From Candidatus Peribacteria bacterium (GTDB lineage: Bacteria; Patescibacteria; JAEDAM01; Absconditabacterales; Absconditicoccaceae), in assembly GCA_031288635.1 (NCBI GenBank), contig JAITQZ010000072.1, positions 1-5,184 on the forward strand: 5,184 nucleotides of DNA. The letters are read 5' to 3'. Below the pieces are notes generated by a model. That model saw only the letters and a list, made by a program, of their open reading frames with translations, searched no databases and was not told the DNA's origin. How positions within the stretch are numbered: position 1 is the first letter of the stretch; each line of letters begins with the position of its first letter. A program made the position numbers and the translations under genes. Positions 1 through 5,184 of the stretch are shown here, one piece after another.

Positions 1-2458
1 TCAAAGGTGCTACTGAATGAGCTCCCGTTTCCACGAGAGGAGGCGTTCAACATTTCCCATCATAAAGGTCTCCACTATAGTCTCCATCTCCACAAACATC
101 TTGCGTTAATCCTCATCATCAACCACCGCCTCATCATCCACCTCACCCTCATCAACCGCCACCTCATCAACCACCACCAGCCACTACTTGAGTCGCATTA
201 CACGAAGCAGTTGTCCCTCCATTCACTCCAGAACACGTCCACGTTCGTGGTCAACTTCCACTTACAACAGAAGAAACACCTCCTGAACAAAGGTTAGTCG
301 TGGGTGCAACAGAAACACTGGTTCAATGGGCTGTTCCACACACTCCATTAATAATCTCCAGTCTAGTAATCGCAATTTCTGTCTCCGCTTGATGTCCAGC
401 TTCATCAGTAATATGAACCGTAAACATAGAAGTCCCCGTATGCAAAGAAAGAGATGTAGACCAAATTCCTCCCGTAAACGGCACTACCTCCCCACTTATC
501 GTGATAGTAGCCACATTTGCTTCTACATATGTTCCTGTTAATAGTATACTGGCTCCCGTAGTAGAAAATCCACTCTGATGAGAGACAATAGCTATCGTCG
601 GAGGAATAGTATCTAATGTTATCGTCGCTTTCCCCGTAAAAATTAGACTCCCCGTCCAAATGCTTCGAGTAATATCCTTCACTCCCTCCCCACTACTCAA
701 CTCCAAAGCTACATCAAATATTCCCTTCCCAGTACCTGTAATACTCTGTATCATATCTCCAGAAAGTTCATAGTGAGCGTCTAAAGACGTTTCTGCCATC
801 CCAGTAAGTATCATTCCAGAGCTATACAACGGAAATTGAAAGCTATTAGGACACAGTGGCAATGATGCTGAAACCTTCACACTTCCCGTATTTCCCGCCC
901 AATCCTGTACTAACAAGGTCAAAAAAGCTGTCCCCGTACTAAGCGTCGTCGCTCCCGTCCAAGAAAGTCCACCATCCCAACTATAAGCCGCTCCCGCCAA
1001 TGCAAGGTCATCGCTTCCCGTAAACGTATAGGTCAAAAAGGCTCCACTACAGTAATTATCCGTATCTACCGTTCCCGTAACCGTAGGCAAAATAGTATCA
1101 AGCAATTGAAGACTACGATAAAGATTGATTCTTCTATTTCCCGCTATCTGTTTACTAGACGATGAAAGTATATCTGCTCCATCAAAAAGAGCTTGCTTAA
1201 CTTGTCCTCCAGTAAAATCAGGTCTATACGTCCATAAAAAGCTGAATACTCCTACAACGTGAGGCGTTGCCATAGAAGTCCCATCCATATTTGTATAACT
1301 ACCACTGAGAATGGTGCTATTGATACTCACTCCAGGAGCTGAGATATCTACAGTTTGTCCATAATTGGAAAACCAAGCTAAAGTATTATTGCTTCCATGA
1401 GCAGCTACACAAATTACTTGAGGATTTGTAATATTAAAATTACATGGATAATTTGGAGTACCATCATTGTTTCCATTATTATTTCCGGCTGCTGCAATAA
1501 AAATTCCTCCTGCATTCGTGAAGACAGTAATTGCTTCCAACATTGCGGCATCATAATCAGTTCATCACAAACTTGCATTGATAACGTTTGCCCCATTATA
1601 AGTAGCAAACTTAATACCCTTTATAATACTATTAGAATCAATAAATCACTTGTTTGCACTATACTGATACCCTACTTTAATGGCCATTATTTTCGCATTA
1701 GGATGTACACCTACAATTCCTTGCATATTATCCATTTCTGCTGCAATCGTCCCTGCTATGTGCGTTCCGTGCGTATTGTACTCCTCTACAGAAAGCGTTT
1801 GAGAGGGAGAAGTGGGATTTTTTGCAGTAGCTACGGGAAGAGGGTCTTTATTTACAGTACCAGTACCCTGAAAACTCCCTCCTAATTGATAGACATCTTT
1901 AACATAAAAACTTGCTCCATGTTTACATCCTCATCGATAATTTCCACTAATATTTTTACAATTACTTCCATCTCGCATTTGATTTACCAGGTCAGGATGA
2001 CGATAATCTACGCCTAAATCAAGAACAGCTATCAGACTTCCAGTAGCATTGCGGTTCCCACTGAAAATTTCCATCGTTTCTGGTCGATGAATATTGGGTA
2101 AACCTCGCAAACTACCATACAAACTATCGTTGGGAGTAGCAAAAACTTGATACAAATAATTTGGCTGCACGTACTTTACTCCCGGAGATGCAGACAATTT
2201 TTCAATAAGCTCTTGGGTACTCTCTCCGCTTTTCCCCACCACTAACGCCATTGTCTCATTATCCTCTACAGAAAGCGTACTCAGTGTGGTGTACTCCGCC
2301 ACAGGAGTCGAAGCTACAGAAAAAAGCCCTACTTTCGGCTGCTCATATACCACAATCACTTGCCCCTCCATATAGTCCTGAGCAAAAGCCAAAGGAAAAA
2401 AGAAAGCAGAAATTGAAAAAAGAGCAAAAAGAATCTTATATATATATCTGCATTGCAT
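1..2458 (-). CDS. Secreted subtilisin-like serine protease (S8) with Ig-like and Cys-rich tail; UGA read as Gly; C-terminus beyond window
   Basis: Reading UGA as Gly gives one open frame of 819 residues that runs off the left edge. Residues 1-26 form a signal peptide (basic R4 and K8, hydrophobic core, AFA-Q cleavage site), so the protein is exported. Residues about 30-105 resemble an I9-type propeptide (SPGVKYVQPNY). The peptidase S8 domain spans about 140-453 with the full triad: Asp147 (VLDLGVD), His230 (HGTHIAG) and Ser395 (GTSMATPH); Asn326 (AAAGN) fits the oxyanion residue. Two Ig-like regions follow (about 455-532 and 615-697), then a Cys-containing repeat (about 698-757), a poly-Gly linker (761-783) and another Cys-containing motif (CGDGDYSGDLYDGKCG, 789-804). 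Seventeen in-frame TGA codons occur, ten of them in the linker; residues 298-299 of the family motif VINASLGG are both TGA. Six CGA codons (residues 118, 125, 162, 175, 598, 738) probably encode Trp. The family is certain; the substrate is unknown. A role against host or prey proteins is only inference. Confidence 0.95.
110..178 (-). repeat. Poly-glycine linker, 23 codons mixing TGA with GGN
   Basis: On the minus strand this in-frame tract contains only GGN codons (13) and TGA codons (10), including a run of three TGA at 113-121. Read with UGA as Gly it is 23 uninterrupted glycines (protease residues 761-783), a flexible spacer between the Cys-containing repeat and the next C-terminal motif. 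Under the standard code it would be ten stops in 69 bp. On the plus strand it appears as TCA/ACC triplets, which creates a meaningless His-rich open frame. Confidence 0.93.
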
Positions 2459-2603: not shown

Positions 2604-3698
2604 TTATTTCTTTGCTTTCAATTGGTACACTCCTTTATCTACTCTCTCAAACAACTCCTTGAACTTTTGCAGATTAAGCATTACGGTATTTGGACTCACC
2701 ATTTTTTCTTTCAATACTTCCTTGCAAAGCTCTTTTACTGCCATTGGCCTCTCGTTTCTCTTAAAAATTCTTTCGAGAATTTCTTTTACTTGTCCTCCTT
2801 CGTATCCCCATTCTTTGAGCCCATAACGTCCGAGTCCAAGATTAACAAAGATATCATTATTTTTCACGAGTTCATTATGAATAGTATTGATTTTTACGCT
2901 TTTTTCTGGGAACCATTCCAAGATTTTAGCTGGCAACTCTTGGAAATGCACAGGTTTATTGAGCCTTCTCATCGTATAATAGATTTTGAGCTTCATTGTC
3001 TTTGGATTTACATCAGCGAATGACTCAAATCCTACTTTTCCATCAAATACACATATTCCTCTGATAATAGAGAAAAAGTTCATATAAAACAAATCGTTTT
3101 TCAGATAGCTTACTTCTTTGTACTCTTTCAAGAATGCATCTTTAAGCACTGCAATAAATTCATACACATCCTGAGACTTTCCTCTTTTGGTAAAATAATC
3201 ATTGATATACAATACCATCTTCGTCAGCAGGTCTTCGTAGATAGGTTCAATATAGAACGCTTTGTGCAAAAATCTATTTCTCTTGAGATACGTGACATCA
3301 AAATCTGAAATAAGAATAAGTTTGAGCTCAGCTTTATTAAATTTGAAAAGATTTCTATTTACGAGTTTTGCCACGAGCGTATCTTCTGCTAACACTCCTC
3401 CGTGAGCCTCCAACACTTTTTTGGCTTCAATCAAAACGTTCATATAGGTATCGTTTCCAACGATTAACCTTCTGAACCTCATCAGAGCTTGGGTTTCAAT
3501 CTGTCTGATTCTTTCCCTCGTCAGATTGTATTCCACTCCAATCCTTTGCAGAGGAATCCCTTTTTCTCCTCCCAGCCCAAATTTTTTCATCAACACTAAT
3601 CTCTCTTTGGGTTTGCAATAGATTAGAATATCCTTGAGGGCGGTTCCCTCAACGTCGACTTTGAGTTTCTTGTCGTCTAGTTTTACGTTAAAGTTCAT
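2604..3698 (-). CDS. Transcription regulator with sigma-70 region-4-like HTH and HARE-type winged helix
   Basis: This complete 364-residue protein is probably a DNA-binding or RNA-polymerase-associated regulator in the cytoplasm. Residues about 21-80 resemble sigma-70 region 4, with the recognition helix LTRERIRQIETQALMRFRR (59-77) that in sigma factors contacts the -35 element. No sigma region 2 is visible, so it is not a complete sigma factor. Residues about 232-297 match the HARE-HTH fold (NTIHNELV, then FVNLGLGRYGLKEWG), as in the RNA polymerase delta subunit. A second winged-helix-like unit may span about 302-361, and the middle (about 92-230) may hold further helical domains I cannot name. 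The ATG at 3698 is the only reasonable start, because an in-frame TAA lies at 3711-3713. No Shine-Dalgarno motif is seen. It has its own promoter and terminator. Unlike its neighbours it uses no TGA (all 20 Gly are GGN) and no CGA; Arg is mostly AGA/AGG. Target genes are unknown. Confidence 0.88.
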   Translation of the reverse strand: MNFNVKLDDKKLKVDVEGTALKDILIYCKPKERLVLMKKFGLGGEKGIPLQRIGVEYNLTRERIRQIETQALMRFRRLIVGNDTYMNVLIEAKKVLEAHGGVLAEDTLVAKLVNRNLFKFNKAELKLILISDFDVTYLKRNRFLHKAFYIEPIYEDLLTKMVLYINDYFTKRGKSQDVYEFIAVLKDAFLKEYKEVSYLKNDLFYMNFFSIIRGICVFDGKVGFESFADVNPKTMKLKIYYTMRRLNKPVHFQELPAKILEWFPEKSVKINTIHNELVKNNDIFVNLGLGRYGLKEWGYEGGQVKEILERIFKRNERPMAVKELCKEVLKEKMVSPNTVMLNLQKFKELFERVDKGVYQLKAKK

Positions 3699-3801: not shown

Positions 3802-4746
3802 TTACATCATATTTTTATACAGTTCCGTCGTATCATCTTTATCTAAAAGCGTATGGACTTGTTGGAGATATTTATCATCCACGTGCGTATAAATTTGTGT
3901 CGTAGTAATAGAAGAATGTCCCAATAATGCTTGTACTGACCTAATATCTGCCCCCTTTCTCAATAAAGAAGTAGCGAAACTATGTCTAAGCGTATGAGGT
4001 GTCACTTTTTTCGAGATACCTACCAACTGAGCATATTGTTTTACCAAGGCTTCCACACTATTCCTACTCAAAGGGGTCCCATAACTATTTCTAGACAAAG
4101 AAATAAAAAGAAAATCTGAATCATCACCTCTCGCAAACAAATAATTTTTCAATTTCTCCCTCGCCTGCACCGTCATAAAAACAGAACGCAGTTTGCTACC
4201 TTTCCCAATCACAGAAAACTGTTTTTCAGACAGTTTAATATCGCTTTTTTTGAGGGTAATCAACTCTGTCACGCGAAGCCCTGTACCATAAAGCGTATAT
4301 AAAATAGCTTGGTCTCTCGCAGATTTCAAAGGATGCTTCTCAAACTCCAGAGGAGCTCCCAAAATCTTTTCCACCTCTTGTTCAGAAAGGTAAGAAAGCT
4401 GACGAGGAGGGATTTTGGCCAAATCCAGCTTATCAGGAGAAATCGTTTCTACATCATTCCTCAGCAAAAACCTAAAAAACGACCTCAATCACACAATATG
4501 ATAGTTGACCGTTTTATGACTCAAGCCCTGTTTCACCAAAAAAATTCTAAAATCCTGAATTTGCAGACTATGCACCTGATTAGCAGAGACATCTCCCACA
4601 TACGAGATAAACCTATTCACTCGCAAACTGTAATTTTCTATCGTTTTAGGAGAGGAATTTTTGGTATATTGAAGATAATTAATGAACCTTTCTAAATGCG
4701 TACTCAGCAAATTAAAATCCTGACCATATCCCTTAGTAGACCCCAT
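3802..4746 (-). CDS. Xer-type tyrosine recombinase, one UGA codon read as Gly
   Basis: The protein is 314 residues when TGA at 4489-4491 is read as Gly86, near the usual Xer length of about 300. Residues about 10-95 form the SAM-like core-binding domain (SPKTIENY, then LRSFFRFL). Residues about 113-305 form the catalytic domain with all six active residues: Arg158 (TGLRVTEL), Lys182 (GKGSK), His251 and Arg254 (HTLRHSFAT), His277 (LGHSS) and nucleophile Tyr286 (QIYTHV). Their spacing closely follows E. coli XerD. It probably cuts and rejoins DNA, for example to resolve chromosome dimers, or acts as an integrase. XerC, XerD, XerH-like or integrase identity cannot be settled, and no dif or att site is seen. 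I chose ATG 4746, which overlaps the upstream gene by 14 bp; an in-frame ATG at 4839 would add 31 low-complexity residues and a 107-bp overlap. Neither has a clear Shine-Dalgarno motif. CGA at residue 42 sits where related proteins often have an aromatic residue. Confidence 0.93.
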
Positions 4747-5184
4747 TTTGACTGTTGACGAAATTTTGGAGCTGCTGTTTGTCTTGCTCTGGGGTTTGGG
4801 CGGCTTGTGAAAGGTTGGGGTCGAATTCTCCGTTAACATACGCCTGCATTTGAGTTAAAAAGGTGTTCATACGATTAGATAACACCGTATATTCCTCTAT
4901 ACTCAAAACCTCTCTATTTTCAACTCTTTTAATCAAAAGGTCAGATTGATAAACGACATACCCCGCATACTTCACCAGATAGGCATCGTCCTGTCTTTCT
5001 CAGATTTCTACCAGCTGTTGAGCAAAATTATATTGAGACATCAAACTCTGCACCATATCTTGGGAACTCACTTCAGTGGGAAGAAGCGGCTCTGTATCTG
5101 TTCCATCTAAAGGCAGAGGAGAAGAAGGCTGTTCATTTGGAGTTTCAAGAGGAGAAGAAGATGGTTCATTTGGAGTTTCAAGAG
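4733..5184 (-). CDS. Unrecognised protein with Pro/Ser/Glu-rich repeats, C-terminal part only
   Basis: The frame is open from the right edge to TAA at 4733-4735 if TGA at 5000-5002 is read as Gly (EI-G-ERQDD), giving 149 visible residues; the start is outside the window. The first part is disordered-looking and low in complexity, with an 11-residue tandem repeat (LETPNEPSSSP, then LETPNEQPSSP). A helical, Gln- and charge-rich region follows (from MVQSLMSQYNF to about NTFLTQMQAYVNG), then a polar tail ending NSQNGVY. I see no transmembrane segment or catalytic motif in the visible part and do not recognise the family. It overlaps the recombinase start by 14 bp, so the two are probably cotranscribed and translationally coupled. 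A GTG at 4975 could be taken as a start under the standard code, but that would ignore the open frame continuing upstream. Confidence 0.75.
5131..5184 (-). repeat. 33-bp in-frame tandem repeat, reaching the window edge
   Basis: A 21-base stretch at 5131-5151 recurs identically at 5164-5184, a period of 33 bp (11 codons). It encodes repeats with the core LETPNE followed by a Ser/Pro-rich spacer in the unrecognised protein. The second copy reaches the window edge, so the copy number is unknown. In-frame repeats of this kind commonly vary in number between strains. Confidence 0.8.

Follow-up and report, generated by a model that had tools for sequence, protein, structure and literature searches.

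Predicted reassignments of CGA and CGG to tryptophan

A reassignment of the arginine codons CGA and CGG to tryptophan, accompanied by that of UGA to glycine, has been predicted in the Absconditabacteria (Shulgina and Eddy, 2021; PMC8629427). The initial annotation of the DNA studied here had referred to this published screen, and correctly so. In the accessible portion of that paper, six Absconditabacteria species are tabulated, in which the codons had in general not rebounded (CGA below 37 per 10,000 Pfam-aligned codons), one species being more advanced. The same portion uses G73 without A20 as the test for a tryptophan-type tRNA, and it states that a reassignment can be established by experiment alone (PMC8629427). 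According to the portion of another article that was at hand, Absconditabacterales decode both CGA and CGG as tryptophan (PMC13092985). Among the matches listed for literature on Absconditabacteria codon reassignment, no protein-level proof of CGA as tryptophan was found. Since the prediction has been published in PMC8629427, the finding described below is right but known. The comparisons provide strong independent support for the 2021 prediction, at the level of sequence, and their additions over published work, namely the boundary of the change and the share of CGA among tryptophan codons, are modest. A sense codon that has taken a new meaning in a bacterial order makes the evolution of the code testable.

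Layout and placement of the window

The window, i.e. the whole stretch of DNA analysed (5,184 nucleotides), contains four frames on the minus strand, which were read with NCBI table 25 (UGA as glycine) for codon counts (Table 1). Together they hold 7 CGA, 0 CGG, 6 CGT, 2 CGC, 27 AGA, 14 AGG, 10 TGG and 19 TGA codons, and both the number of CGA codons and the lack of in-frame CGG agree with the initial annotation, whose positions were also correct. The triplet TCG at 1973-1975 of the plus strand is CGA on the minus strand, where it makes up codon 162 of the frame that encodes the subtilase (2458..2). Six CGA codons lie in the subtilase and the seventh in the recombinase, where residue 73 becomes residue 42 if counted from a later ATG. 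ARAGORN detected no tRNA gene in these 5.2 kb.

Table 1. Frames of the window and their in-frame CGA codons; homologue counts refer to the matches listed, except for the recombinase site (36 sequences including the window)
Feature	Position	Strand	Evidence	In-frame codons
S8 subtilase with prodomain, 3' end open in the window	2..2458	-	PF00082 (4.4e-48), PF22148 (7.2e-07)	17 TGA (Gly), 6 CGA, 8 TGG
CGA, subtilase residue 738 (GSGP-x-TWTC motif), read as Trp	245..247	-	W 587, F 50, Y 16, R 3 of 656 motifs	
CGA, subtilase residue 598	665..667	-	position from codon count	
CGA, subtilase residue 175, column without decision	1934..1936	-	Leu 42, Asp 37, Ile 19, W 2, R 0 of 109	
CGA, subtilase residue 162 (NQM-x-DGS), read as Trp	1973..1975	-	W 104/116, R 8	
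CGA, subtilase residue 125, column without decision	2084..2086	-	Ala 85/115, R 6, W 3	
CGA, subtilase residue 118 (SL-x-GL), read as Trp	2105..2107	-	W 110/120, R 6	
Sigma-70 region 4 / HARE-HTH protein	2604..3698	-	PF04545, PF05066	no CGA, no TGA
XerC/D-type tyrosine recombinase	3802..4839	-	PF00589 (3.1e-43), PF02899 (4.6e-13); 77% to L001	1 CGA, 1 TGA
CGA, recombinase residue 73 (ENYSL-x-VNRF), read as Trp	4621..4623	-	TGG 19, CGA 12, CGG 4, TAT 1 of 36	
Unnamed ORF overlapping the recombinase start	4733..5182	-	no Pfam match; 36% relative in L001	1 TGA, no CGA

The in-frame TGA codons are spread over three of the four frames, so that UGA is read through and does not act as a stop. Conserved TGA sites in related genomes are opposite glycine, e.g. 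in 1099 of 1275 aligned cells in genome G005, and the single TGA of the window with orthologues faces alanine five times and glycine four times. A glycine-rich linker at about 110-187 of the window (subtilase residues 758-783) comprises 10 of the 17 TGA codons of the subtilase; as it would be senseless with TGA as tryptophan or as a stop, it gives a vivid sign of UGA as glycine. The sigma-like protein next to the subtilase has neither TGA nor CGA in its 364 codons, compared to 17 and 6 in its neighbour, and has an 81% relative in G006 (L027). The relative of the unnamed ORF occupies the same place in L001 (9625-10050), just before the recombinase.

The nearest record, JAISMG010000014.1 (L001 of genome G001), is labelled Candidatus Peribacteria, yet its genome belongs to the order of SR1 bacterium MS502-49. 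This order can be equated with the Absconditabacterales because the record is titled SR1 and because SR1 is equated with the Absconditabacteria in the accessible part of PMC8629427. In a recombinase tree, which is built on one gene and whose bootstrap stopped short of full convergence, the window groups with G001 and G041 (94/87) inside a nine-row clade that includes G005 (100/96). The view of the initial annotation that the window argues for Absconditabacterales is thereby supported. The G+C content is 0.394 over the 5.2 kb of the window and 0.284-0.359 in the loci of nine relatives; the reassigned clades in the available text of PMC8629427 range from 0.26 to 0.38, slightly below the value of the window.

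CGA at conserved tryptophan sites of the window

Recombinase residue 73 was followed through the order of SR1 bacterium MS502-49 (49 genomes), with matches of at least 48% identity taken. This set leaves out 13 genomes, four without any match and the rest with weak matches only; G046 lacks the site. In the window and 35 relatives the site is occupied by TGG, CGA, CGG or TAT and never by AGA, AGG, CGT or CGC. The nine relatives that a genome scan had turned up divide into three with CGA and six with TGG at this site. By comparison, 11 near-invariant arginine columns of the same protein hold 399 arginine codons in 37 sequences, none of which is CGA or CGG, and so the earlier statement that conserved arginines never use CGA is upheld in the recombinase. 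The 120 close database homologues listed print residue 73 as arginine 92 times and as tryptophan 28 times; the printed R results from the translation used and is no evidence for arginine.

The columns of the subtilase were scored on the 120 database homologues listed, all of which were kept, some of them probably from the same order and misprinted. Tryptophan had been expected at residues 118, 162 and 738, and it dominates all three (Table 1). Eleven homologues whose names place them outside the order (in Paceibacterota, Dojkabacteria, cyanobacteria, Pirellulales and other groups) were inspected, and all of them have W at both 118 and 162. The motif around residue 738 is a repeat (G-x-GP-x-x-W) that was sought in the subtilase and recombinase homologues and not found there; it was counted in the homologues listed for a G001 repeat protein that carries the same motif (120 sequences). 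In sampled parts of G001 and G005, CGA or CGG occurs in six of six copies of this motif, the search pattern having admitted only W or R at that place. Residues 125, 175 and 598 had been called uninformative, which holds for 125 (mostly alanine) and 175 (leucine or aspartate), residue 598 having been located by codon count. Between residues 100 and 440 the subtilase has only four columns dominated by tryptophan, at which the window carries CGA twice, TGG once and ATG once; these columns take two of the four CGA codons of the region, more than expected by chance.

Codon meaning across the clade

The meaning of CGA in relatives was read from reciprocal best alignments with conserved surroundings, covering parts of G001, G003, G005 and G008 and the flanks of other loci. 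The 212 CGA sites of G001 are opposite W in 102 cases, CGA/CGG alone in 72, F in 7 and Y in 7, and the 223 TGG sites of the same genome give a similar profile (W 103, CGA/CGG alone 58, F 13, Y 10). CGG sites face W in 13 of 32 cases, and CGT, CGC, AGA and AGG are mainly opposite R. The same picture emerged for CGA in G003 (W at 72 of 151 sites), G005 (85 of 170) and G008 (43 of 89). Isolated CGA or CGG codons opposite R were seen in G002 to G005. Few sites were available in G006, G007 and G009; the four CGA sites of G009 face F twice, CGA/CGG alone twice and W never. A prevalence of conserved arginine in CGA columns, which the initial annotation had named as contrary evidence, does not occur in these alignments of order genomes.

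The comparison was extended to solved proteins that use the standard code, i.e. LeuRS, MetRS and PcrA. Among 37 CGA/CGG codons of the G001 orthologues, 29 could be aligned (four unaligned in LeuRS, one opposite a gap in PcrA and three in a 2-bit stretch of MetRS were left out), and these are opposite W in 13 cases, F or Y in 7, R in 3 and other residues in 6. As controls, TGG was opposite W in 8 of 13 cases and AGA opposite R in 24 of 31. CGA had been entered as arginine in the search, which biases the result against tryptophan. MetRS was aligned to its second match (3vu8); against the best match (2csx), eight sites inspected by eye gave one W and no R.

Extent and possible course of the change

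LeuRS was surveyed in G001 and in 40 of the 144 class genomes that gave a match; 16 of them belong to the order and 25 lie outside it. The outside genomes were picked, 15 because their LeuRS gene contains UGA and 10 as others. They were divided according to the number of TGA codons, except that G151 and G101 were assigned by hand to the second group (matched part without TGA). Because each frame was taken upstream as far as the preceding stop, TGA totals may include bases 5' of the true start. Within the order, 132 of 149 CGA and 13 of 15 CGG codons fall on tryptophan columns, and one CGA falls on an arginine column (in the weakly aligned C-terminus of G041). Outside the order, 57 of 64 CGA codons fall on arginine or lysine columns. 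The proportion is 36 of 42 in the genomes with UGA in the gene, in which 8 of 10 CGG codons lie on such columns and one on a tryptophan column (G060), and 21 of 22 in the ten others. In this chosen sample, the use of CGA as tryptophan thus coincides with the order and UGA as glycine extends more widely. Neither CGA nor CGG is present in the LeuRS of 7 of the 15 outside genomes with TGA in the gene (L285, L289, L290, L292, L295, L296 and L298), which makes these loci candidates for an emptied-codon stage. Sister genomes that lack both codons and are not reassigned could show the intermediate stage.

The two codons have been adopted to different degrees within the order. CGA and CGG provide 52% of the tryptophan-type codons at conserved aligned positions in G001 and in G005, 44% in G008 and 40% in G003, and their share at the tryptophan columns of LeuRS ranges from 5% (G011) to 86% (G049, 12 of 14). 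In G005 and G001, CGA accounts for 52-55 of every 10,000 codons at conserved aligned positions. A probable course is that CGA and CGG were first emptied and then captured: UGA as glycine would be common to the order and to sisters with CGA as arginine, some of which have emptied the codons, the takeover by tryptophan would have occurred on the Absconditabacterales stem only, and CGA would later have become the majority codon in some members. If this stepwise reading is true, present-day lineages display a series of codon capture that goes further than the early stage described in 2021.

tRNAs for CGA and alternative readings

ARAGORN reported 39 tRNAs in G001 and as many in G005; their anticodons include GCG, UCU, CCU, UCG, CCG and CCA. 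An ACG (ICG-type) tRNA, the normal arginine tRNA for CGA that had been put forward as an argument against tryptophan, is not among the 39 found in either genome. The tryptophan-like tRNA with anticodon UCG or CCG that the initial annotation had proposed to look for does occur in relatives: tRNA-UCG (in nine of the first nine genomes) and tRNA-CCG (five read) have G73 and lack A20. For comparison, all 11 arginine tRNA genes examined (GCG, UCU and CCU) combine A20 with A73, and tRNA-Trp-CCA (three read) has G73 and A1:U72. Of the 49 genomes of the order, 37 yielded a total of 38 readable UCG genes, and 37 of these genes (in 36 of the 37 genomes) have G73 and no A20. The 12 genomes without a readable gene comprise nine without a pattern match and G022, G026 and G027, in which the match gave no UCG tRNA; second matches of G026 and G027 were left out. 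Although 29 of the 38 UCG tRNAs carry A/G1:U72, this pair is no sharp mark of tryptophan, since the UCU and CCU arginine tRNAs have G1:U72 as well. The exception is G037 (L273, G037:C58), which has a classical arginine-type tRNA-UCG with A20 and A73 and a recombinase match of 25% identity without TGA; this tRNA is perhaps a contamination, otherwise G037 would be a member without the change. TrpRS gave one match in each of the nine genomes searched.

In G002 and G003, tRNA-CCG (L002 7083-7155 and L003 7398-7470) is encoded about 2.5-2.9 kb before the recombinase. ARAGORN also reported "selenocysteine" tRNAs with anticodon UCA (L041 879-953, L079 2243-2316, L034 1025-1098 and L036 1980-2053), which start with GCG and seem to carry a U discriminator, as would be expected for tRNA-Gly-UCA.

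The most probable mechanism is that a dedicated tRNA with anticodon UCG, aided by the CCG tRNA, pairs with CGA and CGG. With the arginine mark A20 absent and the tryptophan mark G73 present (A/G1:U72 in many), this tRNA would receive tryptophan from the single TrpRS instead of arginine from ArgRS. Arginine would be left with CGU and CGC, read by tRNA-GCG, and with AGA and AGG. By extension from its relatives, the genome of the window would be expected to encode the same tRNA, presumably with no residual reading of CGA as arginine. The codon meaning in the clade and the tRNA marks are established as far as sequence comparison goes. Given that the conserved sites of the window, the orthologue alignments of the relatives, the solved standard-code proteins and the tRNA identity marks agree, CGA in the window almost certainly specifies tryptophan and not arginine. 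There is very little doubt about the wider reading, by which the window is chromosomal DNA of an uncultured bacterium of the Absconditabacterales (SR1) with UGA as glycine and CGA as tryptophan (CGG likewise, judging from the relatives), decoded by a dedicated, tryptophan-charged tRNA.

One alternative concerns only the origin of these tRNAs. They may be former arginine tRNA genes that have lost A20 and not recoded copies of tRNA-Trp, an option that we consider somewhat less likely than not. It would account for the arginine anticodons kept in both tRNAs, and G001 and G005 carry further arginine tRNAs (GCG, UCU and CCU). Against it, with the anticodon masked, the CCG tRNAs of G001 and G008 have tRNA-Trp-CCA as their closest match, the UCG and CCG tRNAs are mutually nearest in G005 and in G003 (whose sample has no CCA tRNA), and the UCG tRNA of G001 is nearest to CCG. 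As the UCG tRNA of G008 resembles tRNA-Gln-UUG, to which it is nearest, an origin of the UCG and CCG genes from tRNA-Trp is only suggested.

The recognition of tRNA-Arg uses the anticodon base C35, which both the UCG and the CCG anticodon keep. Ambiguous decoding is therefore conceivable, in which CGA is mostly tryptophan and partly arginine because ArgRS charges the UCG tRNA or because another tRNA-Arg misreads CGA, and the few CGA codons opposite arginine in the solved-protein comparison and in the LeuRS survey would fit it. The separation of the UCG and CCG tRNAs (G73, no A20) from the arginine tRNAs (A20, A73) and the avoidance of CGA in the conserved arginine columns of the recombinase make this very improbable. 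The standard reading, with CGA as arginine and the tryptophan columns as chance substitutions, could appeal to subtilase columns 125 and 175, which are not tryptophan, and to the three arginines among 29 solved-protein sites; it is refuted at the clade level by the alignments (recombinase residue 73, the arginine columns free of CGA/CGG, and the opposite LeuRS columns inside and outside the order) and deserves practically no credence. Another aromatic residue (phenylalanine or tyrosine) or an unusual one is just as implausible a meaning of CGA. In its favour, F and Y rank directly after W among the certain partners in G001; against it, the partner profiles of CGA and TGG are alike. Tryptophan remains the preferred reading.

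Comparison with known systems

NCBI table 25, defined for SR1 and Gracilibacteria, converts UGA to glycine as in the window, whose frames stay open under it. It differs from the code proposed here in that only TGA is altered, and its translations consequently print arginine at CGA sites for tryptophan. Public proteins of the order, for which this table is used, accordingly show arginine where the cell most likely inserts tryptophan, as read from the protein records of 92 of the 120 recombinase homologues listed. Other database proteins (P0007, P0011, P0091 and others) look as if translated with UGA as tryptophan and CGA as arginine, e.g. RWL where the family has WGL, in which case both codons would be misprinted.

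A CGN-box arginine codon has likewise passed to tryptophan in other low-G+C bacteria, Anaerococcus and a clade of RFN20 Bacilli, according to the accessible part of PMC8629427. Unlike the situation here, these belong to another phylum, only CGG is affected and tRNA-UCG is missing. The closest match is provided by the Absconditabacteria of the same paper, which in that part share with the present case the codons, the amino acid, the group and the tRNA logic (UCG and CCG tRNAs with G73 and no A20, and no ACG tRNA). They are reported with CGA below 37 per 10,000 Pfam-aligned codons, compared to the 52-55 found here with another denominator that precludes a direct comparison (PMC8629427).
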